A DNA stretch of 43,472 nt from Saprospiraceae bacterium. GTDB lineage: Bacteria > Bacteroidota > Bacteroidia > Chitinophagales > Saprospiraceae. Position numbers and translations under genes: made by a program. The notes below the pieces were generated by a model. That model made no database searches and was not told where the DNA came from. It worked only from the letters and a program-made list of their open reading frames with translations. The DNA is taken from the NCBI GenBank assembly GCA_013140975.1, contig JABFRV010000111.1, forward strand, positions 1 through 43,472. Reading direction: 5' to 3'. This document shows, one piece after another, positions 169-33,258 of the stretch (its first letter is position 1; each line of letters starts with the position of its first letter).

Positions 169-3100
169 TTAATTAATAATTACCATTCTATTGCTAAATG
201 ACCTCGTTTTGTAATCTACTTGATAAATATATATTCCGCTAACAGGAATAATTGACCGATTAAGATTCCAGACATTCTGGCCTTTAATCATTTGTTTCGT
301 CTGATTATAAATTACTCTTCCTTCAATATCACTAATTGTTAACCTTACTTCATCCTGTTCAGGAACTATTATTTTTAGTGATGTACTATTCTTCCATGGA
401 TTCGGGTAATTTTGATATACAACAAAGTCTGAAAAATTCGAATTCCTGAATTCCAATTGAACACCATTCTCTTCCCCTAATTTATCTACACTGATAGGTT
501 TTAGTAATTTATCATTTATTTTCAAAAAGTGTGATCTGAATCCATCTTTTTTAGTTCTAACTAGAACTGTAAATAACGCATTGGTTCCGGCATCAGTTTC
601 ACCATTCCAACTCAACAAAATCTTACCGAAATTCAAATAATTCAGATTAAAGTTTTCCATACCCATTCCGATCTCAGAATTCCCAATTACTTCTATAATT
701 TCAACTGCATCACTATCTATTTCAAGGCAAGCTTGCAATCCAGAAAATTCTTTGAGATTCGTTACGCTAAAATTCCATTCTTCAATTTCTCCTTTTGTTA
801 CCTTTTGATCCATTAGTGATAGGACCATTGGCTTATTCGTTCTTTGAAATGTATTTACATTAGAATTTACAGCAGCATTTCCATCAATATCTCCTATTTT
901 AACTCCAATAAACGTAGCGTTTACATCATCTTTCAATGTAGATATATTTACTACTTCATTAAATGGTTCGGTTAAAGCAGTTTCAATATTCTTAAATTTG
1001 TAAGAATTATCTATAAATCTCCAACTCGTATTTTTCGCCACCTCCTGTATAGATCCAAGAATAAGTTTTCTTAGTTCACTTATATCCGCAGAAGTAATTC
1101 CTTTAGAATTATTTACATCCGCCGCTATCATTTGGAATGGTGTAGTTAACAATTTCTTTCCTAATATATGTTTTTGAATTCTTACTATATCCGATGTACT
1201 TACGCCATTTAACCAATCTTCATTATTGTATGGTCGAATTGAGTACTTGCCACCAACTGGCATTTCACCAAACTTAAAAACTCCATTAAGATCACTAACT
1301 GTATTTCCTTTCACTGAATTATCCAAATGAACTTCAATTCGTTCCATCCCTTCTTGCTTCTCTGTCAATAATTGTCCACTCACAGAAGCTACTGCTCGTG
1401 TAGGACATCTCGGATCTTGCTGTGGATTATCATTGATAATAATAATAGTGTTAACAAAAGAAGTATTTCCATTAGGATCTGTAATCCATAATTGAACATT
1501 TTTAGGACCTATACTGTCACATGAATATATTCTGAACCTATCGGCAGTATCCTTACTAAAACTAAATCGCAATGGCAAACCACAACTATGATATGAGCCT
1601 GCATCAAGATCTTCTGCCCACACTGTTACTAACTTTCTATCCGGAGTTCCATCTCCATCGGTATCTACCGCCACAAGACCAATTGCCAAATCTTTATGAG
1701 CGTATGCAGTTGGTGGTTTGCAATTTAAAAGATTAAGTTGGGATTGACATGTATCCACATTACCGCATTTATCCTCAACTTCCCATTTTATAATATGGTT
1801 ACCGATTGGCCATATCCCTGATATGGCACCAGATCCTATTTGAGAATTAACTATATCAAATGTTCCATCATGATTCAAATCTATTTTATACTTATAGACT
1901 AATTCATTCACATTGGTACAAAAATCTGTCGCATCAATATGTAGATTTACAAGAATTGGTTTGCAAGCAGTATCATAGGAACAAATCGTAGTATCTCTGC
2001 ATACTTTTGTAATTATTGGTGCAACGGTATTCCTAACAGTAATAATTTGAGTATCCCTAAAAATCAGAATATTTCCCAATCTGTCTCTAAAACACCAATC
2101 TATTACCTTCCATTCTCTCAATATCTTGTAACAAGGTTGTCCCGGAATAGTAGAAGATAAAATATGATCTTCATAATCCATACCTACCAAACTACATTCA
2201 TCATCAGAAAAAACAGGAAAATTAAAAGGTTGCGTTAATAATTCTGGCCTTAATGAGCCGGCATCACAAATATTTGTTGTATCAAAATCATCCGGCCAGT
2301 TAATATTTAAATCAGACATTGGATTATGATTATCAATTGTAATTCGTTGAGTACAACTATCTCTGGCTCCTAAAGGATCCATAGCAACAAACTTTCGTAT
2401 AAGTATACCCATCCCACATTGATTTAATCCACTAGTATCTATTGTTTCGATTATATCTAATTCACAATTATCTTTTGCAATTCCATCAATAGGGTGTGAG
2501 ACAAAATAATGCCAATATCTTCCATCAATTACGATAGTATCCCTGTCCAATTCATCTATTACGACTTTGCCAAACGAATTACTCAAATTTAAATAGTCAA
2601 AGCTAAATCTACAATCAACTTCAATATGCGGAGGGCAACTAATTTGTGGTTGCTCTTTATCCTGAACTTCAACAGAAATCATACAAGTTGATTCATTTCC
2701 AGAAGCATCTATTGCCTTTAAGCTAATCAGTACCTCTTTGCCAATGTCGTTGCAACAAAAATGTACTTCTTGACCCCAGGAATCTTCACCTACACTATTA
2801 CATGAATTCAAATCCATTCTTTGAACTTCAAAGCGGTCAAGCTTGCATTCATCAAAACTTCCATTATCAAATGCAGAAGCAGCAACGTAAACAAGGCCTG
2901 AATGATTTATTGAAACAACGGATCTTCTATCACATATTGCAACAGGAGACTGCTGATCTAAAACGGTAATGAGAATTGTATCTTCAGATACATTATAACA
3001 ATTGTCATAAAATTTATAAACGATTATGTTCTCACCTAATGGTAAAGACACTGAGCCTCCATTAGAATTTGATAGAATACCCCCCGGATAACTAATTTCT

Positions 3101-6100
3101 GAGCGAAGTAAAGAATTACATACTTCAATTGCTTGAACTTTAGGTAATTCCACTACTGCTGAGCACGATTTAGAATTTGTTGTAACCGAAAAATCCATAT
3201 GTCTTGTCTGAATTTCCGGACCTGTTTTATCAACTATAGTTATAAGTTGTTGCCAAGTTCTTCTAATTTCTGATGAACACCACCATTCAATGACTTCCCA
3301 GGTTCGTAATACTCTTTTCTGGCAAGAAATAATTTCTAAGTCTTCATCATCAAAATCAACAAAGATTCCACAATGAAAATCTCTATTTGGATATAATTCT
3401 ATTCTACCATTAAATGTAGGAACTCCCGATAGCGCAGGATCAATTCTACCATTGTTATCATATTGAACTCTTGAACAATCAAGTTCAATATTCTCCGGAG
3501 AAATTATACTATCAAAAGAGATTCTTTCAAAAAGCAATTCTCTCATGCAAATATCACTTGAATTGCCCCATACATCAATTGCAGCCCAGTGCTGAATTAG
3601 CTTTTTTATGTATTTTTCATCACAGAAATAATTAAGCTCTTGTGATTTTACCATTTTTAAATCATACGTGCTGCATTCTTTTAATACTTCAACTCCCAAA
3701 TCATGGTTCTCATATTCTAAACAAATTAATGTATCAGAATCACACAGAATAATGGGGCCTAATTTATCTTCAACCCAAACATTTGTCCAACATGAATTCC
3801 CACAGATTGTATCCTTAATTGTTACTATATAAGACTTACCAGCATCATTTATTCCGAATACATTTTCATGTGGTTTATTCTTTTCATCTTTTACTGTAAT
3901 TGTAAATGACATTGGATTCAAAGTTCCCTGAGCAAGAAGCATTGAAGGGGTTAATATTCCTGTGCATGATTCGTCAATACTAAAATTAATTCTCTCCTTA
4001 CACGCTATCGGAAGACAAATAAAAACAGAAGCAACATCCTCATCATCCTCATCACCCTCAGCTGTACCACCACCAATTACGCCTTTGCCATTTCCATGAA
4101 TAGCATTATCACTAGGTCCCATTAATTCACCACCCGGATCATTTTCAGAATCTTCATCAGGATCACTATCAATATCATAACTTGACATATCAGAACCTGC
4201 CATATCCTCCATTGAATAAATTTCAGCAGAGTTTATTAAGTTTTCAGAAGTAGCTTTGTCTGTAACTTTAAGAAAGATATAAAATTTATCATGTCCGCCA
4301 GGAAGTATGGCAGAATTCATTTTATGAATTATATGGCCTCCTGAAATGGACCAATCGGGATTCATACCGGGAATAAATTCATATGCATCATTCATATAGT
4401 CAAGTATTACAACATTTTGAGCAGGCACATTTCCCTGATTGTAAACATCGACCGCATATTTAACAATATCGCCTATACTTACTCTTGGTGAAGATTCTAT
4501 TGTTTTCTTTAAAGCTAAATCTATCACTAGCGGAATAGCAAAATCTTGATCATCTTCATCATTTGGATTATCAATTTCATCATCAATAATTTTGATTTCA
4601 TTATTCACATCCTCATCCGGATCACTGTCTGCGTCTTTTAAAAGTACACCGAAAGCATTTTTTGCCGAACTAATTTCTGCAACATTTTTTAAATTTTGAA
4701 GATTCGTTCCAGGTTTAATTTTTAATTCGATAAAAACAGACGTCGAGGTTCCTTTTAATAATACAGGTATTTCCTTTTCATATTTATTTCCAGATAGTAG
4801 AATCCATCCATTCGGATCTGTTGAACTAATTTCATAGCCATCAGGAATATCATCTACAATTTTAATATTATAACCATCTACTGTTCCCTGATTAAAGACT
4901 TCAATTTTAAATAATACAATTTCTCCCTTTTTAACAACAGTATTGTTAACAATTGTTTTTCTTAAAGCAACATCGAATATTTCTATACCCGCAGGATCAT
5001 GATCATCTTCTCTTCCATTCTTATCAATCGTTAGTGGATCATTGTCATCTACATCACCTGGCATTGTATTTTTTTCAGCAGGAGTATCGGAATCAGGCAT
5101 GCTATCCATATCATCCATGCTTCTATTAACTCTCTTTTCATCCAGAACTTTTGAAATCTCGCCAAAAACAACATAATCTTTCGGATTGGATGAGCATTTA
5201 TTTACGGTTAACATTAAAGTTGTCATAATCATTTCTCCAGGCATCAAAGGGGTTGAAAAAGTATATTTATACTTATCTCCTACTTTAGCCCATCCCTGAT
5301 TTACTGAAAGATCAATACTATAACAATTTGAAAATATTGCTTTAATATCAATTTCACTCATTGCTACTGAGCCTTGATTAAAAACGGTAAACTTATATGT
5401 AACCTTATCGCCATACTTAAATGAGCCTGTACTTGCCAATTCATTAATCAAAGCCAAATCCACTATTTCAGGTCCGGCAGGATCATGATCATCTTCTGAA
5501 CCAACTGAAGAATCAGAATTACTAAGCTTATCGTTATCACCGGGTTGCCCTGGCATTATTGCTGTTTCATTCGTTGTATTACTTCCATATCTACTATCTA
5601 CATCTGCTCGAGATACACCTTTAATATCTTCAGCTGAAACAATTTCAGAATAATTTATCCATGATTTTTTTGTAGGAGTCGCAACCGGAATGGTTGTAAG
5701 TGTTAAACTAACATCTGAACAAGTTCCTGCTACTAAAGGTCCTGTAACAAAATATCTATTCATTCCCGGTCCATCAAACTCTGAACGACGAGGAATAGAA
5801 AACCAACCACTACCTTCGGTAAATTTATAACCATAAGGCACATAATTTTTAAGTTCTATATTATAAGCATCTATATTACCCTGATTACAAATTGTAAGAG
5901 TATATGTGTGAACTTGATTGTATGAATATGGACCTGTTAAAGGGTTCGTCAGCATATTCATTAATGCGAGATCAAATATTTCAATTAATTCCGGATCTTC
6001 ATCGTCTTCATCTACCGGAGGTTCTTCATTCATTTGATTATCTGTTGAACTTCCAGGAACGCCACCAGTGTCATTGCCTACTATATCATCAGGTTTGGAA

Positions 6101-9100
6101 TCAGCGTCGGGAACTACTATACCCCGGCTATCTTTAGCCGATTTTATTTCTGCTCTATTTGTATACAAATTTCCTCCTCCACTACCTGGTTTAACTCTTA
6201 AGAAAATATTCTTATTTACACATTCGCCTGTCGGCAAAATTGATGGTACCATAAATGTAGCTTTACTAACTCCATCAAAATCCCAGTCCGGATTTGCAAT
6301 ATTGTCAAATGTAAAACCTGAGGGTATGTAGTTTACAAGATTGATCATAGTTGCTGATTCGTCTCCTTGATTACAAACCATAATGTTAAATTCTATCAAC
6401 TGACCATATGAATATGGAGTTGGAGTTACTGTCGTTAATTTCAAAGCCAAGTCAAACTTTGGCAATGTAACTTCAGCAGGATCATGATCATCCTCATCTT
6501 CTCCAGATTTACCATTCTCATTTATCTTATCATCATCTAATAAATCATTTGACTCTCCTGTTCCCAATCCAAATTGTATAAGATCCGGATCACTGTCAAT
6601 GTCCGGAAATGATAGTGCATTTGAAGCACTGCTGATTTCTGCCCAGTTGCGAATTTTATAACCACTATAAGTTGCGCTAATATTAAAATGAATATCTATA
6701 CTTACGTTACCACCTGCTGGAACATTGATACCAGTACTATTAATTGACGGATTCGCATTGCTCCAACCTGACCCTGCTAATGTTAATCCAGTTGGATAAT
6801 AATCTGCAATTTTTACATTCGTTGCATCGAGAGTTCCCTGATTGAAAATTGTTATTGTATATGTTACATTACCTCCAAGTGCAACTGTACCTGATTTAAA
6901 TATTTTTCTTAACGCTAAATCGAAAGTCTGCGTTACATCAATTTCTGCAGGATCATGGTCATCTTCATCACCACCCGCTAGTCCATTTCCACTAATAACA
7001 TTATCATCATTGAGATCATCTGTCTCTCCTGGTCCCGGACCAAACTGAGATTGATCTGGATCACTATCAAGATCGCTAGGTGGTGTATTTGCAGAATCAG
7101 TATCATCATCTGCAGATGAAATTTCTGCCCAATTACGAAGTTTAATACCTTGAAATGAAGAATTTATTCTTAAAGTAATGCTTACGGTTTCAGAACTGTT
7201 AGGTGAAATTTTTGCTATAGGAGAATTTAAGGTTGCCTTTGTAGTTCCGGACCAATTTGGATCTTCCAAAGACATTCCTGTAGGAATATAATCAGTTACA
7301 ATAATATTATATGCGTCTAATTGACCTTGATTGGTAATGGTAATATTATACTTTACCAGATCTCCAGGCTTGTATGGTGCTGGAGTCATTGGTGAAACTG
7401 CTTTAGTTAAAGCAAGATCAAAGGCTGGAACAGGTAATCGTTGAAACCCAAAATCAAAATTATGATTGTTGTCACCCAGATCTCCCGATCTAAAACATAC
7501 TACTGCACTATCACCAACTGGCTGACCATCATTATCTCTTCCATCTGCCTGTCCTGTACCACCTACGTCTGAAAGTGTAAGATTATGATTTTTTAATATA
7601 CTTTGTCTTTTAGTACCTTTAACATCCGGTATTACTATGCAATAATCTCTATTTTGCATTAGCATACTGATGTTATAAATCGACGAAGTATTAGATGTTC
7701 CTCTACCATTAGAAAAATAATAATTTCCATTATTATCAGTTAATGCAGTTGCCAACAAAGTTCCATCTGCTTTTTTCAACTTAACTATTACATTGGCTAA
7801 TGGAATTTCACCAGGATCTTGAATTCCATCACCATCCCATTCCGCCCATACTCTATTCCCGATTTCCATAGGAGGTGCTTCACCTAAAATTTCAACATCT
7901 CCAAGTCCGTTTCCTTTAGCAAATGAATTATTAGGATTTGGTGGCCTTCCAACATATTCTCCCGTATCGAATAATGTATAACCTCCTGTTGTTGGCTGTC
8001 CACTAAATGGCAACAAAGGAGCACCCTCTCTTTCCCCCGTTTCATTAATAAGTCTTAATAATCCACCACTATAATCATTCATTGGATCCATTGCAGTCGA
8101 CATTACAACTGAAGAGCCTGGTACTTGTAAAAGTGATCCTTGCGTGGTTTCAAAATGATATCCACCTGAACTTTTACTCGCATCCCAAGTATACAAAGGA
8201 TCCTTGAGTTGCCAAAAATCCCATTCATAATGCTCTGGCATTGATAGTCCGCCCGGACCAGAATTTAGTAATCCACCGGAAGTTGGACATAACAAATTTC
8301 CTTCAAGTATCCAACCAGTTCCAGCTGAATTCAAACAAGCACGCAAAATATCACCTGCAGCTGTACCAAATTTATTTGTCGTTTCATTATAATCAAAGCG
8401 TGATGCAAATCCTGCCTGATCACCAAATCTATCTCTAAAGCCGAGAATCATATTTCCTTTTGCATCAAATTCAATATCCGAAAGCATTGCTTGCGGATAC
8501 GCTATTTCTCCTCTTCCATTATTCAACGGAGTAAAAGCGTTAGCTGCACTTTGCCATGGATTCCAATTTGAATTTCCTCCCGTGTATATAAATTCTTGTC
8601 TATTGTACGTTAAGGGTATTGTAAGTTCCAAATTGAATGTTGGAGAAGCAACAGTCGGATCGAATGAATGAACAAATGCATTGCTTCCATTCTGGTCAAC
8701 TGATCCAATGTACAATTTATTCTTATACCATTTTAGTCCAAATGGTCGATGTCTTCCTGCACTTGTAGCATCCGGTGCATTCCACTTAAAATTGAGCATT
8801 GTAGATCCCGGGTTTCCTGATGAAACATCCAATGAATAAATTTCGCGAGTAAATAAATTTACAACGAATAAAGATTTCTCATCACCTGACATTTCAATGT
8901 CTCCAATAGATCTTTTTCCAGCTCCGTCAAAAGATGAATATCCTACACCTCCAGGACCCAGGTCATAAAAACCTGAACCTGTTGGCATAAAACTACGCAC
9001 CACAAAATCATGAACATCAGAACCTGTTACATTGACTACACTTATTGTACTATCTAAATTAATAACACCTACAATTCCTCCACTTGTATCAAGTTGATAT

Positions 9101-22432: not shown

Positions 22433-25400
22433 CTATTCTTCAATAATAATCTTATTAGCATACTCCCCTCTTGCTGTTTTGATTTTTAGCAGATACAAGC
22501 CAGTATGAAATTCAGAAAGATCCAATCTCAATTCTTTCACGTAAGGTTTTGAAAGACTTAATATTTTACCATTGGAGCTACAAACCTTGAGCTCCTGAAT
22601 CTCATCTTTGGAAGTAAGATAAAATATTCCAGTTGATGGATTTGGCAATACACTAATTCCACTTATTCTATCAACATCTTTAACTGCAATAGGTGATAGA
22701 TCAACAATTCTGGATATTTTATTTGTTCCACAAGCGTTTGTTATGGTGAGTGTAACATTGTATAATTTTAGTTCCGGAAACTCATGCTTAGGATTTAATT
22801 CATTGCTAGTCGTTCCATCTCCAAACTCCCATAAGATATCTCTAACCTGTGTTGAATAATTATTAAACTTAACTTCTTTTGAACCAATAATGTCAAAATC
22901 AAAAGATACCTGTGGAAGCAGGTAAGCAATAAATTCTTTAGAATTAATAACAATCTGATTAGAGTCTTGAATTGACATTATAATCGTTTTTTTACCGGCT
23001 GAAGAAAATCGTACTGGCACAGGTCCATTTCCAGAACCCAATCTTGGTGAACCACTATTTCCGAAATTCCATCTTATTGTTGAACCTGATGGGTTAACTG
23101 AGCCTGTAAATCTCACAATCGTATTTGCACAAACATCCATTGGAGTCCAACTCATATTTAAAACAGGTGTGGATAATAATTTCTCGATAACTTTTACATT
23201 ATCAATATATAAATTCGAAAACACCCCTCTTATCAAATTAATTCTAACGACGATCTTTTTACCTTTAAACAAACTGAGGTTAATACTAATGTTTCTCCAC
23301 ATTCTTGAGTCTGTTGGTATCCAATTCTCATTCATTGTTGGAGTTGTTGTGTATAAATCCTGGTCTGCACCAGTATATAATAATTTGGTTGTAGCAGCTC
23401 CTGAACAAAGATCTAATATTTCAATGCTCATTGTATCAAACAAATTTAGGAAAGTAGTTGATTTATGATACGCATAATCCATGTAAAAATATGGTTCAAC
23501 AGAAGACGTTAAATCTACTGTTGTTGTAATGAGATTTAACAATTGATTTGAAAAGCTGTAATTATTGTTACTAAATGTTACAACTTTACTGGTGCCTCCA
23601 TTGATATCAATCTGGTCTGAAAATTTCCACGAATTATATGGCAAATCATTCTGCACAATCCAGTTCGCAGGTATCTGTCCTTTTTCAAAATCTTCAATCA
23701 TTGGAAATACTCCTTTGGTATCAGGAACAAGACTATTCATAATTACAATGTTCGTTGAGTCGTTATAAACATGTTCGTCTGTCTTTAGAACTGTCCATAT
23801 AGGAATTGTTACAGAGCCAATGAAATGAAGAGGAATACCTTTAGATAAAATAACCAGAATAGAATCACGATACTTTAGAGTCTTCGTAATTTTTTCAGTT
23901 ACAATTTTATTCTCAAATAAATAATGAACCTCAAAATCTTTGACTTCATTTACATTTCTATTAGTAACCCACACTTCAGGATATGCTTTGTCAAGAGTAT
24001 CACAACTAATAAATCTTCTTTCAGTCAGCCAATCATTTTTTGGCTTAATACTAATATCATTTGCAACTACACACTTAACTAATGTATCAGGGACACCGAT
24101 GGCTTTAGTTCTTCTTCCTAAAACTCCAGAACTATCTCCCGCTACTGAAAACCATAGCGGAGTACTACGTGAAGTAATTGGAATTGTAACTGAATTATTA
24201 TTCGTTCTGGCGATTTCTTTCATTTCCTGGCCTTGCAACGAATAAACAATAAAGCTTTCTTTTGAAGATTTTACCCAGGTTAAAGTAACTTCATCCGGAC
24301 AAAATTTATCGACTTTTAGTCCAGTTACAGGATTCGTGATTGTGAATAATTCCGATTGAATCGTATTACTCCCTTGTGTTAAGCGAATTATACATGTCTT
24401 TGAGTTTACGTTAGATGGAGTATTCCACGGTGTTAAACGGGTAGTACCGAGTACTGTTCTAATACTTCTCCAGGTGCTTCCACTATCTGTTGATAATTCG
24501 ATTTTTATTGAATCTGATTGATATGATCTATAATAAATATTGGTCGCTTCTAGAGTGTTATATTTTTCACCACCAACCGGAGAAGTTATTTCGAGTTTAT
24601 TCTCAGGAAAATCATATAACAAATATCCTGGCACATTAATGTTAGGAAGAAATTTTCCTTTAATGATAATTTTATATTTTCCTGCTTCCGGAAATTGAAT
24701 AGCAACCTGTTCAACATTATTTAAGGTATCAACTCCCGGTCTGGGACCTGCAGCTAATATACTAGAATCAGGTGTTGGATTTGGAACCCATGGCAACACA
24801 ATTGTTCCGGTTGGTGTAATGACTTCGAGATCTATATCATTTATCAATACTTTTCGAGCATTTAATGAAGCTTCTTTTTCTGGCCAATAAAACATAAATT
24901 TGGCGACTGCAGAATTTGCAGGCACATCGATTTCAATTTCAATATTTTCACCATTCTTAACGGTTAATTCTTTATATCTTTTTTCTTGTAACAATTTGGC
25001 TGCTCTATATCCATCAAGAACTCCAAAACCATAAACAAAATCAGGTCCCTGAGGTCCAAGATCCGTGGCTGTATTCATAAGAATTGCTTTAATCAAAGCC
25101 GATGTAGGATTCACTCCATTATTTTCTTTTTTATAAGCCTGATACAATAATGCTGCTGTACCTGCAACACCCGGAGAAGCAGCCGAAGTCCCTCCAAAAA
25201 CCAGATACGCATTACTTGGAGCTGTAGAGTTTTGATTTGTCCCTCTTGCCGATATATCTGGCTTTAATCTTCTATCTCTTGTTGGTCCTCTGCTTGATGT
25301 ATTATCAACAACTCCTGCAATGGTAAGATTTGCTGCTGTAATAACATTTTTTCCAATCTTGTGTCCTCCGGTTACATTTCCCCATTGGTTTCCAGCACCA

Positions 25401-26407
25401 TAATTACAATTTGCATTATTACTATTACCAGCAGAAAAACAATGCAGCAAAGATGGATTATCATACATTTGCTTATCTACAATTTGCGTAATATAAGTAT
25501 AACCTGCATTGCAGCCATTGGAATAAGAGGAATTTGTTATTACTACATCATTAGACTGATGAAGATTTAAAGTATTATCAAGAAAGTCATCTTGATAGTT
25601 CACTGCATAAACTTTACATCGTGGAGCCATCCCTTCCATTAATGGATCAACGTTTCCTGCTCCGCCGATTATTCCTGCAACACCATCACCATGCGAACCA
25701 TCAGATCCAAATGTCTGATTAATTAATCTTTCTTGAAAATCTATATGAGGACCAACAACTCCATCGTCTCTAACAAGTACATTCACGCCTTGTCCATCTA
25801 AATTAATTCCAGACTTACTAGATTCTCCCAATAAATTTACTCTATGAAGACTTCTTCCTTCTCTATCATCCGGAGTTCCTTTGTCAGGAGTACAAGTAGC
25901 ATATTGCAACCAATTTTCATTCGAAAGTGTTTCGAACTGATCTTTATCACAAGTAATATAAATCAATCTATAAGACTCATAAATGCTACGCAAATTTATT
26001 CCTAATATCAAGCATCTTTTCTTGATGGTTTCAATATCAACTAAAGGCAAATATTGAATCGTTATATCTTGATTCTTGCTGCCCGAACAATACTCGCGCA
26101 CATAAAGATTCTCTGAAAGTTTTTCTTTTCTGGACAATACATTTAATGCCAAAGCAGATTCAGCATTGAGTTGTCTAAAATCATTTTTACTACACACTAA
26201 GTATCTCGTTCCATCAACATACTCTAAAACACTCACACCCTTTTCTTTAAGTTGAGAAATATCTGAACCCGATAATAACTTACTAAAATCTGCAATCGAG
26301 TAAGAAGAATTCTCAACTTTCACATATTCCTCTATATCAATTTGCGATTGCAATAAAGTTATGCTTGTTAAGAAGAAAAAAAGAATCTGAAATAATGATT
26401 TTTTCAT
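22433..26407 (-). CDS. Subtilisin-family (S8) serine protease with T9SS sorting domain
   Basis: 1324 residues. A signal peptide (residues 1-21) is followed by a propeptide region of about 160 residues. The peptidase S8 domain has catalytic Asp214 (VLVRDDGV), His239 (GSHGDGVAG), oxyanion Asn328 (SAGN) and Ser408 (GGTSAASPG). After it come a beta-sandwich resembling the C-terminal domain of KP-43-type subtilases (about 480-620), an Fn3-like region, a MAM/jelly-roll-like region (FEKGQIPANW, about 890-1060), a PKD domain (WEFGDGTTS) and a type A T9SS CTD (VLPNPSTGIFYL... to IIIEE). It is predicted to be active and exported to the surface or medium. It is the last gene of the exosortase operon, 2 bp after a lipoprotein that resembles its propeptide. 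Substrate unknown. Confidence 0.92.
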   Translation of the reverse strand: MKKSLFQILFFFLTSITLLQSQIDIEEYVKVENSSYSIADFSKLLSGSDISQLKEKGVSVLEYVDGTRYLVCSKNDFRQLNAESALALNVLSRKEKLSENLYVREYCSGSKNQDITIQYLPLVDIETIKKRCLILGINLRSIYESYRLIYITCDKDQFETLSNENWLQYATCTPDKGTPDDREGRSLHRVNLLGESSKSGINLDGQGVNVLVRDDGVVGPHIDFQERLINQTFGSDGSHGDGVAGIIGGAGNVDPLMEGMAPRCKVYAVNYQDDFLDNTLNLHQSNDVVITNSSYSNGCNAGYTYITQIVDKQMYDNPSLLHCFSAGNSNNANCNYGAGNQWGNVTGGHKIGKNVITAANLTIAGVVDNTSSRGPTRDRRLKPDISARGTNQNSTAPSNAYLVFGGTSAASPGVAGTAALLYQAYKKENNGVNPTSALIKAILMNTATDLGPQGPDFVYGFGVLDGYRAAKLLQEKRYKELTVKNGENIEIEIDVPANSAVAKFMFYWPEKEASLNARKVLINDIDLEVITPTGTIVLPWVPNPTPDSSILAAGPRPGVDTLNNVEQVAIQFPEAGKYKIIIKGKFLPNINVPGYLLYDFPENKLEITSPVGGEKYNTLEATNIYYRSYQSDSIKIELSTDSGSTWRSIRTVLGTTRLTPWNTPSNVNSKTCIIRLTQGSNTIQSELFTITNPVTGLKVDKFCPDEVTLTWVKSSKESFIVYSLQGQEMKEIARTNNNSVTIPITSRSTPLWFSVAGDSSGVLGRRTKAIGVPDTLVKCVVANDISIKPKNDWLTERRFISCDTLDKAYPEVWVTNRNVNEVKDFEVHYLFENKIVTEKITKTLKYRDSILVILSKGIPLHFIGSVTIPIWTVLKTDEHVYNDSTNIVIMNSLVPDTKGVFPMIEDFEKGQIPANWIVQNDLPYNSWKFSDQIDINGGTSKVVTFSNNNYSFSNQLLNLITTTVDLTSSVEPYFYMDYAYHKSTTFLNLFDTMSIEILDLCSGAATTKLLYTGADQDLYTTTPTMNENWIPTDSRMWRNISINLSLFKGKKIVVRINLIRGVFSNLYIDNVKVIEKLLSTPVLNMSWTPMDVCANTIVRFTGSVNPSGSTIRWNFGNSGSPRLGSGNGPVPVRFSSAGKKTIIMSIQDSNQIVINSKEFIAYLLPQVSFDFDIIGSKEVKFNNYSTQVRDILWEFGDGTTSNELNPKHEFPELKLYNVTLTITNACGTNKISRIVDLSPIAVKDVDRISGISVLPNPSTGIFYLTSKDEIQELKVCSSNGKILSLSKPYVKELRLDLSEFHTGLYLLKIKTARGEYANKIIIEE

Positions 26408-26409
26408 GG

Positions 26410-26946
26410 TTAATTTTTTATGTCTGGAATATCCAGCGATTTCATTAAGCTAACGTGTTTAACACAAGGATGCTGCGCAATGTCATCAATGTATTTTTTC
26501 TGGGTCTCAATTCTATAGTATTTATTCTTATAATTCACGACCTTTCCAAAAGAACTTAATTCTACATCATCAATTTCAATAATGGATTGAACGATCAGGT
26601 TACAAGGTGTATTATCCTCTGCTATTTCTTTTAGAATAATTCCTTCAGAAACTTTGTCTTCCGATTTATACTCTTTCAATTTCCGTATTGGGGTTGTGTT
26701 AAGCTTTTTAGTATTCCAGCTATTCTTCCAAATCCCCTGATAAACAGTTTCAAAAAGAAATTCCTGAATCAATATTCCTTGCTCTTCAAGTTTTGCTTTC
26801 TCCTGATCATTTAATAAACGCTTTGCTTCAATCATTCCAATGGTAAAGTTTCCACAATCTTTACTTTTAAGGTCACTTAACTTCTTCACTGGATTACAAG
26901 CCAATATAAAATAAAAGGAAATAATAATTTTTACTACGTTATGCAT
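26410..26946 (-). CDS. Lipoprotein resembling a stand-alone subtilase propeptide
   Basis: 178 residues, starting at the ATG at 26946 that overlaps the upstream stop codon by 8 bp; the longer frame would start 19 codons earlier, inside the previous gene. The start gives a lipoprotein signal with the lipobox FILAC (Cys17). No standard family recognised. The sequence can be aligned by eye with the propeptide of the protease encoded 2 bp downstream: LLNDQEKAKLEEQGILIQEF against LLSGSDISQLKEKGVSVLEY, KVSEGIILKE against KLSENLYVRE, and YYRIETQKKYIDDIAQHPCV against LIYITCDKDQFETLSNENWL. I infer an inhibitor or chaperone of the protease held in a membrane. An unrelated lipoprotein remains possible. 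Confidence 0.75.
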   Translation of the reverse strand: MHNVVKIIISFYFILACNPVKKLSDLKSKDCGNFTIGMIEAKRLLNDQEKAKLEEQGILIQEFLFETVYQGIWKNSWNTKKLNTTPIRKLKEYKSEDKVSEGIILKEIAEDNTPCNLIVQSIIEIDDVELSSFGKVVNYKNKYYRIETQKKYIDDIAQHPCVKHVSLMKSLDIPDIKN

Positions 26947-27583
26947 TTTTAAAAAGAGAATTAAAAATCTGTACAAAATTGCTTTTTTTGAATCCAAATA
27001 CAAGCCATAAAATAAATGAAAGCATCAAAGTAAATCCCAATGAAAAAACACCCAATAAGATTGAAAGTGTCTTCATTTCTGAATCTCCCAATTCATAAAT
27101 CCCTATTCTTGAATTTGAGATTTCAAATGTCGATAAACAAATTAATTTTATACTGATAAACATGAAAATAATCAATAAAGAAATCAACAAACCTTTCATC
27201 TTTTCTTTCAATATCAAAGGAGTTGCTATAAATAAACTAATCAGAAAAAAAACAGGAACAACAAACATTTCAAATAAATGAAGTTCCATTGATTTTGTGG
27301 GTATTGTTGCGTATGCCTGACCTGACTGCTTGGCTTCCTTTTTTGCTTTTTCAATTAGAATTGGATTGCCATATATTAAGTACATTTCAGCATCTATACC
27401 GGACTTTCCAGCAATATTCTGCTGAGAAATTTCAGCCGAAGGCAAGAAGGAACTAATCCATCCAACAGAATATGAACGCAATGGCTTATTAATCATTGAC
27501 TTTACAAAATCTACCCTATATAAAAAAATACAAACAAAATAGCAAAGAATAAATAAGCCAGCAAATCGGAATATATCTTTCAT
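26939..27583 (-). CDS. Exosortase-associated four-helix membrane protein (XrtH-associated type)
   Basis: 214 residues with predicted membrane helices at about 5-23, 105-125, 130-150 and 172-197, and an approximately 80-residue loop between the first two. It lies 10 bp after the exosortase gene and overlaps the next gene by 8 bp. By position, size and topology it matches the membrane proteins known to accompany exosortase H. I recognise no catalytic motif. It probably helps the exosortase present or process its substrate, but that role is inference. Confidence 0.65.
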   Translation of the reverse strand: MKDIFRFAGLFILCYFVCIFLYRVDFVKSMINKPLRSYSVGWISSFLPSAEISQQNIAGKSGIDAEMYLIYGNPILIEKAKKEAKQSGQAYATIPTKSMELHLFEMFVVPVFFLISLFIATPLILKEKMKGLLISLLIIFMFISIKLICLSTFEISNSRIGIYELGDSEMKTLSILLGVFSLGFTLMLSFILWLVFGFKKSNFVQIFNSLFKNA

Positions 27584-27593
27584 GCTAATTTGC

Positions 27594-28100
27594 TTACTTT
27601 CTGTTTTTTAATAATTTATTGACCCATATCAACCAAAGAAGAACGCTAATCATCATAAAAATAATGACACCGCCATGCAAATGCAAAAATTCGAAAGCCT
27701 TTGGCCAATACAATCCTGAATAATATAATAGAGCGATTCTAAAAATATTCAATACAGATAAAATTAGCAATCCATATCCTAATGCCGGTAGTTTCTCTTT
27801 CAATGATATAAGGGGCAAGGCAAGCATTGCAACAATATATAAAGCAGTGGCCTCTAACCCATCACACCCTCCATGAATACTCACTTTAAAAGTATCTCCA
27901 ATAATATTGTCTCCTTCTACAGTTGTTTTCTCTCCAATGAATGATAACAATATAGATGAAAGTCGCGCCTGTATATTTAGCAGGCCAGGCATAAAATATC
28001 TTTCGTACAATGGAGAATAATAGAAAAGATAAAATAACAACATACCTCCTATGAAATACAGGAGAAATTTAGCCAAAGGGGATTTGAAATTATTGAACAA
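27594..28100 (-). CDS. xrtH: Exosortase (XrtH-type, short form)
   Basis: 168 residues, almost entirely membrane helices. The three exosortase/archaeosortase active-site residues are present: Cys79 in HGGCDGLEA, Arg121 in LNIFRIALLYYSG, and His140/142 in FLHLHGG. Exosortases are thought to cleave C-terminal CTERM anchors and transfer the protein during export. The short length fits the XrtH group rather than the longer EpsH-like group, and an IPTLxxWG-CTERM protein, the known partner type, is encoded at 32437-33258. The start codon appears to be TTG at 28100, overlapping the preceding gene by 11 bp, which suggests translational coupling. The family call is strong; the H subtype is inferred from partner and length. 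Confidence 0.88.
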   Translation of the reverse strand: MFNNFKSPLAKFLLYFIGGMLLFYLFYYSPLYERYFMPGLLNIQARLSSILLSFIGEKTTVEGDNIIGDTFKVSIHGGCDGLEATALYIVAMLALPLISLKEKLPALGYGLLILSVLNIFRIALLYYSGLYWPKAFEFLHLHGGVIIFMMISVLLWLIWVNKLLKNRK

Positions 28101-28725
28101 AGGGATTTTCTTTTACTTCATAATTAATTTTCTTCAACGAATCCATTACTCTGATATTTCTTGGATCTGTTTTTGATGCTTCTTTAAGAGAATCAATGAC
28201 TCTCAATAACATTTCATCTTTAGTCGGTTTAAAAAGTCTTACGGATCCTAAATTCCAACCGTCCATTAATAATATAGCTTCTTTAATCTGTAAGACATAC
28301 GTTTCATTATTCTGATAAATATATCCTTCAGCATCGAGCTTGTAATAAGGTCTGTAATTATTTACATAATTATTAAAATCAACAGTATCGAAAACCATTT
28401 TCTTAATTCCAAATTTAGCAATGGAATCTATAAGACCCTTGTACATTTGAATTGCAGAATCCCGCATTCTATCATGTTGCATATTATCAGACATTAATAT
28501 GTTCTCATACTCCTGCATTGATGGTCTTAAATCTTTATAAATTTTTAAGGTCTGTTTTAATTTGAGGGGAGATTCAATTCTATCTAAAAAATAACTTGTA
28601 TCTTGATCAAATCCTGCTTTCAATAGGCCATTACTAAAAATCGTAGGGGTCATAATTTCATTTTCCGTTTTTTTACAGGAAAAAAATGAAATCAATATTG
28701 TCAATAATAAAAATTCTCGCAACAT
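28090..28725 (-). CDS. Lipoprotein of unknown function in the exosortase operon
   Basis: 211 residues with a lipoprotein signal (LISFFSC, Cys17) and a mostly helical, charged body. I do not recognise a family. It lies 11 bp after the FG-GAP lipoprotein gene and overlaps the exosortase start by 11 bp, so it is co-transcribed with and probably coupled to it. Its conserved placement could be tested as an accessory sorting factor, but nothing in the sequence shows a function. Confidence 0.8.
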   Translation of the reverse strand: MLREFLLLTILISFFSCKKTENEIMTPTIFSNGLLKAGFDQDTSYFLDRIESPLKLKQTLKIYKDLRPSMQEYENILMSDNMQHDRMRDSAIQMYKGLIDSIAKFGIKKMVFDTVDFNNYVNNYRPYYKLDAEGYIYQNNETYVLQIKEAILLMDGWNLGSVRLFKPTKDEMLLRVIDSLKEASKTDPRNIRVMDSLKKINYEVKENPFVQ

Positions 28726-28736
28726 AATAATCTATT

Positions 28737-31700
28737 CTAATTCGCTTTCAATAATTTTAATTGCCCATCGTTAATTGCAACAAGTACACCCACTTTGTCA
28801 GATGAGCCTAATTTAATAGGTATTATATCACGGACATCCTGTGGCAAAAAGATACCGCTCTCCTTCACAGGGATAGACTTAAATTCACCTTTACCATTTC
28901 CTTTCATAAATACTCCGATAGAATTATCTGCAATAGGAGTCTCATATTCTGATGCAAACCAATTACCTGCAACTAATAAATCCGATTTTCCATCCTTATC
29001 AAAATCCTTATAAATAATTCCTTTAACCGGAGCAAATTGCACTTCAATTGGTAATTCTTTCACAGAATAATTATTTCCAGAACGAATTAATAAAACAGTA
29101 GCAAAATTATTTGCTTTTAAATTTACCATCTTCTCTTTGTTATCACCAAGTATTGAAGTTATATCTGATTCTGCAAAATCTCTGAAGGTAGGAAACTTCT
29201 CAATTAAACCTGGTAATTGTTCGGATGAGCATTGCCTTCCTCTTATGGGTACCATTTTATCTTTCAGGTGCTTGGCTAAAAACACATCATAAGTACTATT
29301 TCCGTCAAAATCATTGGCAAATACTTCGAAAGGTTTTTCTACTGTGGCGTGATACTTATAATTTAAACCAAGATTACCAACAATTAAATCATTTACACCG
29401 TCACCATTTACATCTGCTTCAGAAATTCTATTCCACCAACCTGTATGAGGAACATCAATTTTATAGCTTGTTGAGTCCTTGATATATTTTCCATCTTTTT
29501 GAACTAAAAAAGTAATAGGCATCCATTCTCCAACGATTACAATATCAGGTTTTTTATCTGCATTTAAATCTGTAATTAACGCATCTGTAACCAATCCTAA
29601 TTTATTTAAAGCCGGAGCTATTTCTGCCGATACATCCGTAAACTTTCCATTGTCATTCCTCAAAATAAAACTATTGGATGGAAAAGGATAATAATTAGGA
29701 ATTACTCTTCCACCAACAAAAATATCGCTATCACCATCAGCGTCATAATCAAATGCTTTAACACACATTCCGCTTATCCCAATTGGAGGCAAATTGCCTT
29801 TTGCAAATTTCCCACTTCCATCATTTATATATAATCTATTATTATAGTAACTGTAATTTGCAGGTTCTTCTGTACCTCCGCTAACTACATAAAGGTCCAG
29901 ATCTTTATCATTGTCTGCATCAAAAAAAATGGCTCCAACATCTTCATGAATCTTGTCTGCATCAAAAATAGTGTTCTGTGTAACAGAAAATTTTTCATTC
30001 GCACTTTGAATGTATATAGCACCTGCTTGATTTCTTGCTCCTCCCACAAAAAAATCTTCAAGGCCATCACCATTTACATCTCCTGTACAAATGGCAGGTC
30101 CGTTTCTGGATAATCTATGTGGTAATAATACCTGAATCTGAAAGTCATTATATAAATTTTCAGTATGCTTAAATACTTTATCGAACGAAGTTAATGTCGC
30201 ATCCTGAAAAAGTGTTTTAGCTATTGTATTTGGAGTTGATATTTGTACCGCATCATCATACTTAACTTCTACTACTTTATCAGCATCAACCTGAGTAAGA
30301 ATTGTTTCTTTACCATCATTCCAATTTACGACAATTTTATCTACCTTCTTTGATTTTCCAATTCCAAAATGAAGAATTGGTTCAACACTGGAAGCATATC
30401 CTCTTACAACTTTAAATTGCTCGAATTGCTCCTTGTCATTTGACTTTACAGTTACTTTAGCTCCAAGCCCAAAAACATTTTGTCCCGGTCCTTTTAATTT
30501 TACTCTTAGAGAGTTGTTGCCTTCTAAATTATTGCGTTGGATAAATGGCGGTTCATCAAGATTATTCACTACTAAATCAAGATCACCATCGTTGTCAAGA
30601 TCCGCAGTTATAGCACCTTGTGATAAACTTTCCTTATTTAGTCCCCAGGACTGAATTTTATTTGTAAACTTCAAATTTCCTTCATTCTTATAAATATAGT
30701 TGACTAATTTAACTGTTGGATAATATTTCAAAAGATTTAAATCCGCCGGTACTGGTTTACTAGCATCTTTACTTTTAATATAATCTTTAAATTGTAAATC
30801 TGCTTTTTTGATTGCATCATTATCGAATACATCCCTTTTATATCCATTTGTAATGAAGACATCTCTTAATCCATCATTATCATAATCAGATGCGAGTACA
30901 GCCCAACTCCAATCTGTACTTTTCATTCCAGTAATATCTGCTACATCTGAAAACCATCCATTGCCTCTATTAAGATTGACAACATTTTGCATGTACTGAA
31001 GATTTGTATTTCCGGAGGTAAAGAAAAGATCGAAGATTTCTCCTCTAACCATTGGTGCCATACTTACCTTATTTCTCCAATAGTCTTCTGGTAACATTTC
31101 AACTGTCATTATATCTTCAAGACAATCACCATTTAAATCAATGATATCTGTTCCCATGGAATAGAATGGAGTATGATGAGTGACCTCTTTTATACTTTCT
31201 TTAAAAAACTTTCCTTGCTGGTTGAGATAACAATAATCGTGTTCATTAAAATCATTAGCAAAGTAAATATCCTGATAGCCATCGTTATTAAGATCCGCGA
31301 CAGTTACTGCAAGTCCGTATCCAAAGCTCTGACCAAAACCCATTTCATTCGTAACATCTGTAAAGGTATTATTACCATTGTTACGAAACATTTTTGATCG
31401 TGCTACATAAGGTGCAACTTTTCGTCCTTCAACAACTTGTTCAACTTTAATTCCAAAAGCATCTGGACGATTAGAAACGATCAGATCCAAATCATGATCA
31501 TTGTCCATATCAAAAAAGTTGGCCATTAAAGAGTAAGATGTATCTGCAATTCCATACTCTTTAGCTTGTTCCTTAAATGTTCCATCTTTCTGATTTACAA
31601 ACAGCAGGTTTGCGCGCAAATCTGTTGTTTCCAGGGAAGCACCTCTACATATATAAACATCCAAATAATTGTCAGCATTTATGTCAACCATAACAACTCC

Positions 31701-32069
31701 GGTTCGCCACCCATGTGGAACTTTATTGATTCCGGCTTTATCGCTAATGTCTTCAAACTGAAAATTGCCTTTATTAAGGTATAACTTATCATCAACCATA
31801 TTACCAACAAAATAAAGGTCGGTAAGACCATCATTGTTAATATCACCAGCTGCAACTCCTCCACCATTATAGATATAGTGAAAGGTCAGGAAATTGAAAT
31901 TTTGATCTTCTGTAAGCTTATTGAGAAATGTAATACCACATTCTTCTGGATTGATAAATTCAAAACTTCCATCGGAATTCCCAGCACTTTGGTTCTTCTT
32001 ACAAGATATAAAGAAGGAAAAAAAGCAAATTATTAAAATGCCATTAAAGAGTAATTTTTTCAAATTCAT
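28737..32069 (-). CDS. CRTAC1-like FG-GAP/VCBS repeat lipoprotein with ASPIC/UnbV domain
   Basis: 1110 residues with a lipoprotein signal (FFISC, Cys23). Many FG-GAP/VCBS repeats with calcium-loop motifs such as DINNDGLTDLYF and DLDNDGDLDLVV form the N-terminal half (about 31900-30560) and resume in the C-terminal half (about 30100-28800). Between them, about 30510-30230, is an ASPIC/UnbV domain (SLRVKLKGPGQNVFGLGAKV, VNWNDGKET). Such proteins are common, multicopy, outer-membrane-associated lipoproteins in Bacteroidota, presumed to form beta-propellers for binding. It is the first gene of the operon that continues into the exosortase genes, 11 bp before the next gene. Confidence 0.92.
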   Translation of the reverse strand: MNLKKLLFNGILIICFFSFFISCKKNQSAGNSDGSFEFINPEECGITFLNKLTEDQNFNFLTFHYIYNGGGVAAGDINNDGLTDLYFVGNMVDDKLYLNKGNFQFEDISDKAGINKVPHGWRTGVVMVDINADNYLDVYICRGASLETTDLRANLLFVNQKDGTFKEQAKEYGIADTSYSLMANFFDMDNDHDLDLIVSNRPDAFGIKVEQVVEGRKVAPYVARSKMFRNNGNNTFTDVTNEMGFGQSFGYGLAVTVADLNNDGYQDIYFANDFNEHDYCYLNQQGKFFKESIKEVTHHTPFYSMGTDIIDLNGDCLEDIMTVEMLPEDYWRNKVSMAPMVRGEIFDLFFTSGNTNLQYMQNVVNLNRGNGWFSDVADITGMKSTDWSWAVLASDYDNDGLRDVFITNGYKRDVFDNDAIKKADLQFKDYIKSKDASKPVPADLNLLKYYPTVKLVNYIYKNEGNLKFTNKIQSWGLNKESLSQGAITADLDNDGDLDLVVNNLDEPPFIQRNNLEGNNSLRVKLKGPGQNVFGLGAKVTVKSNDKEQFEQFKVVRGYASSVEPILHFGIGKSKKVDKIVVNWNDGKETILTQVDADKVVEVKYDDAVQISTPNTIAKTLFQDATLTSFDKVFKHTENLYNDFQIQVLLPHRLSRNGPAICTGDVNGDGLEDFFVGGARNQAGAIYIQSANEKFSVTQNTIFDADKIHEDVGAIFFDADNDKDLDLYVVSGGTEEPANYSYYNNRLYINDGSGKFAKGNLPPIGISGMCVKAFDYDADGDSDIFVGGRVIPNYYPFPSNSFILRNDNGKFTDVSAEIAPALNKLGLVTDALITDLNADKKPDIVIVGEWMPITFLVQKDGKYIKDSTSYKIDVPHTGWWNRISEADVNGDGVNDLIVGNLGLNYKYHATVEKPFEVFANDFDGNSTYDVFLAKHLKDKMVPIRGRQCSSEQLPGLIEKFPTFRDFAESDITSILGDNKEKMVNLKANNFATVLLIRSGNNYSVKELPIEVQFAPVKGIIYKDFDKDGKSDLLVAGNWFASEYETPIADNSIGVFMKGNGKGEFKSIPVKESGIFLPQDVRDIIPIKLGSSDKVGVLVAINDGQLKLLKAN

Positions 32070-32231: not shown

Positions 32232-32423
32232 CTATTTTTCTTTAAACATCATCAACACTTGGATCAGATAAGCCAGGATTGGTACTGCAACAATCATTCC
32301 GATAATATCAGAGGTTGTGTATTCTCTCCAAATCAGATAAATACCGATCCAACCGAGAATTGCAATTACAATCGCTATCCAAAAGGCTTTTTCGTATAAA
32401 GCCTTATCAAATGGAAATTGCAT
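32232..32423 (-). CDS. Small two-helix membrane protein of unknown function
   Basis: 63 residues: a short N-terminal segment (MQFPFDKALYEK), a hydrophobic helix at about 14-31 ending in WREYTTSD, a second helix at about 38-58, and a basic end. Only 13 bp separate it from the IPTL-CTERM gene and both precede the same terminator, so the two are co-transcribed. No family recognised. The link to the sorting substrate suggests a role in its export or anchoring, but this is only inference from position. Confidence 0.75.
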   Translation of the reverse strand: MQFPFDKALYEKAFWIAIVIAILGWIGIYLIWREYTTSDIIGMIVAVPILAYLIQVLMMFKEK

Positions 32424-32436
32424 AAGTAACTTTTAC

Positions 32437-33258
32437 TTATACAGTAGCCTTTCTTCTTGTAACGTTATAAACAGTTACGATACCAAGAGTTACAACTACA
32501 AGACCGAATAGGAATAATCCCCATTGAGTCATAGTAGGAACTGGGTTACCACCTAAAGTTAATTGAGCGTTACGGCAAATATTAACTCTTAAAGCTTGCT
32601 CTGGAGGACCAGAGTTAGCTAAGAAAGCACATGATGCTTTTGGAGTCCAATAAGGACAAGCAGCACCACCCCAACCACCAGCTGGCTGATATCTAACGTG
32701 AGCAGCAGTACCGAAACCTGCACCAGTACCATCCCACTCCCAACGATTAGTTGCATTTTGAGTTGGTTGGTTAACACCAACGCAAGAAGTCCAGTAAGTA
32801 GTTCCGAAAGCTGGACGGAAAGCTGGAGTAAACTCATAAGTAACTAATCCTCCTGCCTTATTAACAGTAGTTGAAGCAAATAGCTGAGCTCCAGGAGAAG
32901 TTCCAGTCTGAGTGAAGAATCTAACTTCCATAAAATCAGGGTTACCGAATACCTGCTGTCCAATGTAGTCAATAGAAACGATCTGCTGTCCAGAAACACC
33001 TGGAGCAGGAACATTAATATCTTGACATAATTCAACAGAAGCACCTGTTCCTACGAAATTCGCATTTCTAGTTGAAACCAACCAGTTTCCATTAGCTCCG
33101 AAACCCCAGCTAGGAAGTGCGATATCACACTGTACTGCTGCTTGTGTATTGTTCGGCGTTGAGAAACCTGAAAGGTCGGTAGCTGTTTGGGCGAAAGCTG
33201 AAGAACCCAAACAAACAAAGAGTAAGAGGTTAAGAATTTTGGATACCTTTTTCATCAT
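32437..33258 (-). CDS. Secreted protein with IPTLxxWG-CTERM sorting signal
   Basis: 273 residues with an N-terminal signal peptide (cleaved near AFAQ). The body of about 215 residues is rich in Gly, aromatic residues and Thr, with several Cys, and probably forms a beta-sandwich. The last 34 residues are a CTERM signal: VPTMTQWG, a hydrophobic helix (GLFLFGLVVVTLGIVTVYN), then RRK. VPTMTQWG fits the IPTLxxWG pattern recognised by exosortase H, encoded about 4 kb away. Codon use is strongly biased (GCT, GGT, GTT, ACT, TTC, mostly AAC), unlike its AT-rich neighbours, which suggests high expression. It is the only CTERM protein in the window. Its function apart from sorting is unknown. There is a leader of uncertain length, with a possible TACTTTCG near 33384-33391. 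Confidence 0.9.
   Translation of the reverse strand: MMKKVSKILNLLLFVCLGSSAFAQTATDLSGFSTPNNTQAAVQCDIALPSWGFGANGNWLVSTRNANFVGTGASVELCQDINVPAPGVSGQQIVSIDYIGQQVFGNPDFMEVRFFTQTGTSPGAQLFASTTVNKAGGLVTYEFTPAFRPAFGTTYWTSCVGVNQPTQNATNRWEWDGTGAGFGTAAHVRYQPAGGWGGAACPYWTPKASCAFLANSGPPEQALRVNICRNAQLTLGGNPVPTMTQWGLFLFGLVVVTLGIVTVYNVTRRKATV

Follow-up and report, generated by a model that had tools for sequence, protein, structure and literature searches.

A genus-level exosortase locus of Saprospiraceae that carries a subtilase and its predicted stand-alone prodomain lipoprotein

This analysis concerns an exosortase locus in the genome of a Saprospiraceae bacterium (GenBank assembly GCA_013140975.1), carried on contig JABFRV010000111.1, of which positions 1 to 43,472 form the window that was analysed. 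On the minus strand, the gene for an exosortase (27594..28100) is followed by genes for a four-helix membrane protein (4TM; 26939..27583), a small lipoprotein (26410..26946), and an S8 subtilase (22433..26407) with a sorting tail for the type IX secretion system (T9SS). The last two, referred to here as the pair, are a genus-level addition, in uncultured Bacteroidota, to one exosortase lineage, and the lipoprotein, judged from profile comparisons and modelled fold, is a stand-alone copy of the double prodomain of the subtilase. The favoured reading, to which a probability of roughly 0.55 is given, is that an exosortase locus of the type with HLHGG at the catalytic His (GG type) took up a T9SS-secreted subtilase together with a lipid-anchored prodomain, which would act in trans as folding aid or inhibitor of that subtilase. 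The locus is a conserved genus-level variant made up of known kinds of part, and no paper on the combination was found in the open-access literature searched, which does not establish its absence from print.

Distribution of the protease pair

The run of exosortase, 4TM, lipoprotein, and subtilase genes, in the same order and on the same strand, was present at all eight GG-type exosortase loci of the window's genus. In the ninth genus genome (G292) the exosortase is not visible because the contig begins at the 4TM gene, after which lipoprotein and subtilase follow as elsewhere, and a free lipoprotein open reading frame (ORF) was found in 9/9 genus genomes. The 15 exosortases of the genus consist of these eight, all with the pair, and seven paralogues of a second type, with W rather than GG after the catalytic His, none of which has it.

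Among 398 genomes of the family, the lipoprotein profile matched 15, namely the nine of the genus and six in which the match lay only inside ORFs of 794-1639 aa. A sample of 395 genomes from the phylum gave the window's own genome and one ORF of 1313 aa. All seven matches outside the genus stand directly before an S8 catalytic domain, and are therefore subtilase prodomains rather than free lipoproteins; a free form was found in 0/389 other genomes of the family and 0/394 others of the phylum sample. In an order-wide sample of 198 genomes, relatives of the exosortase occurred in 35 and the lipoprotein in five, all of the window's genus.

The exosortase profile matched in 72 of the 398 family genomes, and the 92 exosortases of those 72 genomes were examined with flanks of up to 8 kb. 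Seventy-seven of them, in 64 genomes, lie outside the genus. A free lipoprotein accompanies 0/77, and an S8 gene was seen within 8 kb of only one (G363; 527 aa, opposite strand), with at least 2.5 kb of downstream flank available at 64 of the 77 and at 24 of the 29 that are of GG type. A general association between proteases and exosortases in the family was rejected on these counts. Neither the lipoprotein nor an S8 catalytic domain was seen at eight further loci, taken from other families of the order and in part on short contigs; at one of these (G065), an ORF that had earlier been matched to the subtilase was found to match its accessory C-terminal parts only.

An initial annotation of this DNA had suggested the pair as a standing part of exosortase H (XrtH) loci. 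That suggestion failed, given its absence from the 77 family exosortases and the seven genus paralogues, although the pair does recur beyond this one genome, at every genus locus of the type. As for how common its members are away from exosortases, the two part company: the free lipoprotein was not found elsewhere in the family or the phylum sample, while the subtilase is common on its own.

The lipoprotein and the subtilase

Counted from Met20 of its listed ORF (26410-27003), the lipoprotein has 178 aa. A signal peptide is followed by a lipobox Cys, invariant in all nine genus lipoproteins, and lipidation is predicted; at the other end, the C-terminal tail closes with a conserved PD. As a single sequence it matched the N-terminus of the neighbouring subtilase weakly (E 0.0035) and that of the G099 subtilase at E 1.3e-7, and a profile of five lipoproteins matched the prodomain of subtilases not linked to an exosortase at 6 of 18 loci (E 2e-7 to 1e-3). 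When aligned with the subtilase prodomain by hhalign, the probability was 95.6% (E 1.1e-8, 139 columns), compared with 0.2% and 2.1% for two unrelated alignments that served as negative controls.

The AlphaFold2 model of the lipoprotein (pLDDT, the predicted local distance difference test, 84.8) consists of two tandem beta-alpha-beta-beta-alpha-beta units. The model of the subtilase N-terminus has the same order of elements, for which alone it was used, its confidence being low (mean pLDDT 65.6). Upon structural realignment against the PDB, the top 17 rows were all prodomains or proenzymes of the subtilisin family, representing three proteins (Tk-SP, Tk-subtilisin, and subtilisin E) and mostly Tk-subtilisin; the best row had Z 8.6 over 74 residues at 2.6 A, and the first unrelated row Z 6.8. 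The protein thus combines homology to the subtilase N-terminal region with a prodomain fold, while scoring below the Pfam cut-offs for prodomains. The propeptide-like character noticed at the outset was confirmed, as was the presence of the 4TM protein and of the subtilase, the latter lying at 22433-26407 and so outside the interval 26410-28100 first singled out.

The subtilase, of 1324 aa, is composed of a double prodomain (about residues 23-175), a catalytic domain (PF00082, 119.7 bits), a PKD domain (PF18911, 44.1 bits), and a T9SS type A sorting tail (PF18962, 44 bits), and its best sequence match in the PDB is SubHal. The catalytic residues D214, H239, and S408 are invariant in 5/5 aligned subtilases; in all nine genus subtilases the Asp, His, and Ser motifs of an S8 subtilase are readable and the T9SS tail scores above cut-off. 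The presence of a T9SS in the window's genome was judged from SprA, the translocon component, which is encoded there (2001 bits). Gene order, active-site residues, T9SS tail, lipobox, and the homology between lipoprotein and prodomain could all be established at the sequence level.

Relatives of the subtilase at E <= 1e-20 occur in 87 of 120 family genomes, the best rows being near full length at 32-36% identity. At 18 subtilase loci elsewhere in the family, no exosortase, 4TM gene, or free lipoprotein was detected in the available flanks, which extended 0.96-1.4 kb upstream in 17 and 0.3 kb in one; some genomes with an unlinked subtilase carry exosortases at other sites (e.g. G265). Since it is widespread without an exosortase, the subtilase is a common secreted enzyme of the family, and what is special about this locus is the lipoprotein and the position beside an exosortase.

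Gene arrangement and evolutionary history

The genes of the core run are tightly spaced, as first noted, with gaps or overlaps of 2-11 bp: the exosortase and 4TM genes are 10 bp apart, the 4TM and lipoprotein genes overlap by 8 bp (counted from Met20), and the subtilase begins 2 bp after the lipoprotein, while upstream a gene for a putative lipoprotein of 211 aa (28090..28725, minus strand) overlaps the exosortase gene by 11 bp. This 211-aa protein had no Pfam or NCBIfam match above cut-off and has homologues directly upstream of an exosortase at 4 of the 92 loci, all four in the window's genus. It is preceded on the same strand by a gene for an FG-GAP/ASPIC-UnbV lipoprotein of 1110 aa (28737..32069; PF13517, PF01839, and PF07593 above cut-off), a type also seen directly upstream of the exosortase in G190 (L059), outside the genus.

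Further upstream, again on the minus strand, lie the presumed exosortase substrate, a VPTMTQWG-CTERM protein (32437..33258), and a 63-aa two-helix membrane protein (2TM; 32232..32423). In the direction of transcription the order is therefore VPTMTQWG-CTERM protein, 63-aa protein, hairpin, FG-GAP protein, 211-aa protein, exosortase, 4TM, lipoprotein, and subtilase. The hairpin (32215-32181, minus strand) resembles an intrinsic terminator, having 16 pairs and then a T-rich tail. A scan found seven such sites compared with 5.5 expected in shuffled sequence, this stem being the longest by far, and there was no Rfam match above gathering score within the window. The hairpin probably puts the substrate and 63-aa genes in a separate unit, and makes a single operon that includes the substrate gene unlikely. 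The initial view of one operon is therefore tenable at most for 32069-22433.

Within the genus, the core run has stayed intact, in contrast to its two outer flanks, which have been rearranged. The FG-GAP and 211-aa genes precede the exosortase in four genomes, and in three others the FG-GAP gene is found beyond the subtilase on the other strand; with its position shifting in this manner, it is not a fixed part of the locus. A shared run of this kind suggests joint expression and possibly joint function. It might also reflect shared location alone, with modules for an exosortase and for a protease and its inhibitor having come together in one lineage without acting on each other, and this alternative is quite possible, although it falls short of an even chance. 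It would explain why the pair is confined to one genus and why the subtilase is so widespread alone, and microsynteny within the genus is in any case fairly high: in at least 5/9 genomes, for example, a ferredoxin gene follows downstream, on the opposite strand. On the other hand, the internal junctions are intact in all genomes despite the rearranged flanks, and in several members stops and starts overlap.

A prodomain tree of 34 rows, from which two of the 18 family subtilases (L085 and L087) had been dropped as their catalytic motif pattern was not found, placed the lipoproteins in one clade (100/99) and the genus subtilases in another (99/98). In both, genomes G000, G099, G293, and G294 were set apart from the other five (98/90 for the lipoprotein, 88/85 for the subtilase), and these paired clades with the same split fit one origin followed by joint descent of lipoprotein and subtilase. 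In the exosortase tree, the GG type, together with one unscored row, formed a single clade (99), on which possession of the pair requires two changes because the exosortases of G093, G316, and G248, which lack the pair, share an open fork with the genus copies.

The exosortase, its membrane partners, and the sorted protein

The exosortase (168 aa, TTG start) belongs to the exosortase/archaeosortase superfamily (TIGR04178, 52.3 bits against a cut-off of 23), and Cys79, Arg121, and His140 are invariant in 10/10 aligned exosortases, in agreement with the intact active site first described. The same cannot be said of the XrtH label given to it then, as neither the XrtH model (TIGR04177, 71.6 bits against 86) nor that of XrtX (NF046081, 79.4 against 170) reached its cut-off, and XrtH was rejected as a firm name. 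Among named genomes, relatives of the window exosortase were found at eight loci, all in metagenome-assembled genomes, seven of Saprospiraceae and one of Bacteroidota.

Five exosortases are encoded in the window's genome (3.97 Mb, 196 contigs), each followed by a 4TM partner of its own; the window's copy alone carries HLHGG at the catalytic His, with HxxFW in the remaining four. For 40 of the 92 exosortases, a class could be scored and a signal lay within 8 kb on the same strand; among these, GG or W behind the catalytic His went with PTM or PTL signals in a ratio of 21:3 against 3:13. This may reflect ancestry alone, since the exosortase tree holds one independent contrast only, and a specificity link between the two was not upheld.

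The 4TM protein has four hydrophobic segments, which by hydropathy form an N-terminal helix and, after a loop of some 85 residues, three more. The window copy matched no NCBIfam model at E <= 0.01, and the 4TM profile was found directly downstream of 84 of the 92 exosortases (15/15 in the genus and 69/77 outside).

The 63-aa protein, which had no Pfam or NCBIfam model above cut-off, has two helices by hydropathy and is the free form of a domain that is fused to the C-terminus in other IPTL 'midcut' proteins. Proteins of this kind beside exosortases are 63-80 aa long (window 32232-32423; L010-L012, L048-L216), and the fused form is the C-terminus of a longer protein, usually a PTxxxWG protein. 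In a six-frame scan of the 92 loci, 32 had the free form only, 20 the fused form only, four had both, and 36 neither. Strict alternation of the two forms, as seen in an earlier ORF-based count (29/24/0/39), was given up with the four loci that have both. The 63-aa protein may be a further part of the sorting system, and the occurrence of the domain in both forms points to a job of its own in the sorting complex for the C-terminal part of 'midcut' proteins.

The presumed substrate gene is 4.3 kb upstream of the exosortase, about where the initial annotation had placed an IPTLxxWG-CTERM protein. Its signal differs from that description, being VPTMTQWG, and the protein is below the IPTL-CTERM cut-offs (PF18203, 12.3 against 20.8; NF033207, 14.8 against 45; no TIGR04174 match). 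It nevertheless resembles the type in having PTMTQWG, a helix, and a basic end, and the signal VPTMTQWGLF[LI]FG was near-invariant in 6/6 genomes. Seven clear PTLxxWG or PTMxxWG signals were found in the window's genome, the PTM form in the window's protein only; of three PTL proteins scanned from the same genome, one (C12) passed TIGR04174 (21.5 against 20.5). Exosortases and PTLxxWG or PTMxxWG proteins of this genome are mostly arranged as local sets (C40, C182, C12, C80, C123; L010-L012, L219, L220), and two of the substrates (C80 and C123) are on contigs where the exosortase search found none. At another locus, L148 (G248:C83), four tandem VPTMTQWG-CTERM proteins are encoded at 1999-6870 upstream of one GG-type exosortase.

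The substrates have bodies of two types, with no similarity detected between them. Type A was found in G000, G099, and G293, and also outside the genus in the pair-less G093, G316, and G248, and type B in G164, G123, G139, and G295. This bears on a further alternative, which assigns the pair to the sorting pathway itself: the subtilase would trim, release, or shed the VPTM-CTERM protein, with the lipoprotein setting the time. The linkage of the pair to one exosortase type (8/8 genus loci, and 0/7 genus paralogues) and the T9SS tail that destines the subtilase for the surface are in its favour. However, two dissimilar sorted bodies occur with the same pair, one of them is found with an exosortase locus that has no pair in G093, G316, and G248, and members of the subtilase family often occur with no exosortase nearby. 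Presence of the pair is thus not tied to one kind of body, an argument against a maturation protease specific for the body, and a role in the sorting pathway is considered unlikely. Less likely still would be a membrane-bound switch, formed by the lipid-anchored propeptide, for a surface subtilase active at the final step of display by the exosortase; the enzyme would trim or shed VPTM-CTERM proteins or else regulate the sorting complex, and a single gene run would connect the inner-membrane exosortase to the T9SS. What ties the pair to sorting is gene order alone.

A proposed tethered prodomain acting in trans

According to the favoured reading of a subtilase acquired along with its anchored prodomain, the lipoprotein, held at the membrane by its lipid, would bind, in trans, the catalytic domain of the subtilase encoded next to it, and the bound enzyme would stay inactive or be retained in the envelope until it arrived at the surface. 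Together with its 4TM partner and the 2TM protein in free form, the exosortase would cut the VPTMTQWG signal and pass the protein on for surface display, and the subtilase would act at that same surface. The lipoprotein probably keeps the adjacent protease in check.

Several points weigh against this scheme. The pair is limited to one genus, and neighbours in an operon can be functionally unrelated. In five of the nine genomes (G164, G295, G123, G139, and G292) lipoprotein and subtilase are separated by 89-165 bp, so that a separate promoter for the subtilase is conceivable there. The structural evidence is also modest in parts: the Z score of 8.6 is barely above the value of about 8 that, according to the tool, unrelated folds reach by chance, and matches to solved structures cover the second prodomain unit only, leaving the first barely tested. 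Foldseek results for the lipoprotein were weak, with acetolactate synthase small subunits best (E 0.005) and the best subtilase at 0.08; a PDB sequence search with the lipoprotein profile gave nothing up to E 10; and in Pfam there was no match to I9 at E <= 1, CspB_prodomain scoring 14.5 against a cut-off of 25. A single clade of lipoproteins and genus subtilases, as an origin of the lipoprotein from the genus's own enzyme would predict, had an approximately unbiased (AU) test p of 0.40. Finally, the substrate body differs among pair-bearing genomes, and type A also accompanies exosortases that have no pair.

Comparison with known systems

The locus is close in kind to the XrtH/IPTL-CTERM and XrtX systems (TIGR04177, TIGR04174, NF046081, and the midcut-by-XrtH model NF033207), with which it shares the Cys/Arg/His residues, the size of the exosortase, and a PT[LM]xxWG signal with a helix. 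It differs in falling below the cut-offs, in having VPTM for IPTL, in encoding the substrate and its C-terminal 2TM domain on separate genes, and in the added pair. A protease is also tied to an exosortase in the exosortase E/protease, VPEID-CTERM system (TIGR04162), in which the exosortase is fused to a CPBP protease, an intramembrane fusion partner rather than a secreted subtilase.

The surface protease PrtP of the dentilisin complex of Treponema denticola is not known to have a T9SS tail. As at the present locus, a lipoprotein operon (prcB-prcA) stands upstream of the gene for this subtilisin-family enzyme, which requires PrcB (PMC8167434). The likeness to PrcB and PrcA is one of gene arrangement; PrtP is itself acylated, and the operon as described there contains no exosortase (PMC8167434). 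PrcB and PrcA have been proposed to anchor and stabilise the protease (PMC8167434), which would favour a lipoprotein that is not an inhibitor at all and instead serves as a tether or receptor retaining the mature subtilase on the outer membrane, or as a chaperone only. This appears rather unlikely. Prodomains of the subtilisin type are known as foldases and inhibitors (PMC6993865), and the sequence does not in itself separate inhibitor, foldase, and tether roles.

By analogy with the two systems that follow, the lipoprotein is most likely a tethered inhibitor and/or foldase of the surface subtilase. Potempins of Tannerella forsythia are small lipoproteins encoded directly upstream of T9SS-secreted KLIKK proteases, and are stated, as data to be published, to inhibit the co-expressed protease (PMC7296668). 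Here, too, a lipoprotein gene directly precedes the gene for a T9SS protease, in 9/9 genomes, inhibition being a prediction. The resemblance is again in gene arrangement, as the window lipoprotein copies the prodomain of the protease itself, and exosortases do not figure in the account of potempins drawn on here (PMC7296668). SUB1-ProM of Plasmodium is a stand-alone propeptide-like protein encoded beside subtilases, one of which it inhibits potently and selectively (PMC6993865). The window's lipoprotein is likewise propeptide-like and encoded next to a subtilase, and would inhibit by analogy; SUB1-ProM is, however, eukaryotic, operates in the parasitophorous vacuole, and is described in the abstract without mention of a lipid anchor (PMC6993865), while that of the window is lipobox-anchored, double, and part of an exosortase locus. 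In the other direction, the propeptide of T9SS-cargo subtilases from Bergeyella has been described as unlike the I9 fold (PMC11982257), a contrary example.

There is little experimental work on the exosortases of Bacteroidota. In Flavobacterium johnsoniae, XrtF, the adjacent Fjoh_1449, and T9SS genes all came up as hits in surface colonisation, XrtF and Fjoh_1449 being biofilm genes as well, in a study that presents itself as the first empirical link to colonisation and biofilm (PMC10936215). Like the present locus, that case involves an organism with a T9SS and an exosortase that has a system-associated protein next to it; it differs in the type of exosortase and in that no protease pair is mentioned in the parts of the report consulted (PMC10936215). 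The colonisation hits make a common surface role plausible, although that exosortase is of another type.

The locus offers a limited gene set, made up of substrate, 2TM protein, exosortase, 4TM partner, protease, and tethered prodomain, in which dependence of one part on another can be tested. The occurrence of the 2TM domain in free or fused form suggests that the portion of 'midcut' proteins left after the cut is a working part of the machinery and not waste. If the lipoprotein does inhibit the subtilase, it would represent a simple evolutionary route to a potempin-like inhibitor, in which a propeptide was copied and then anchored.

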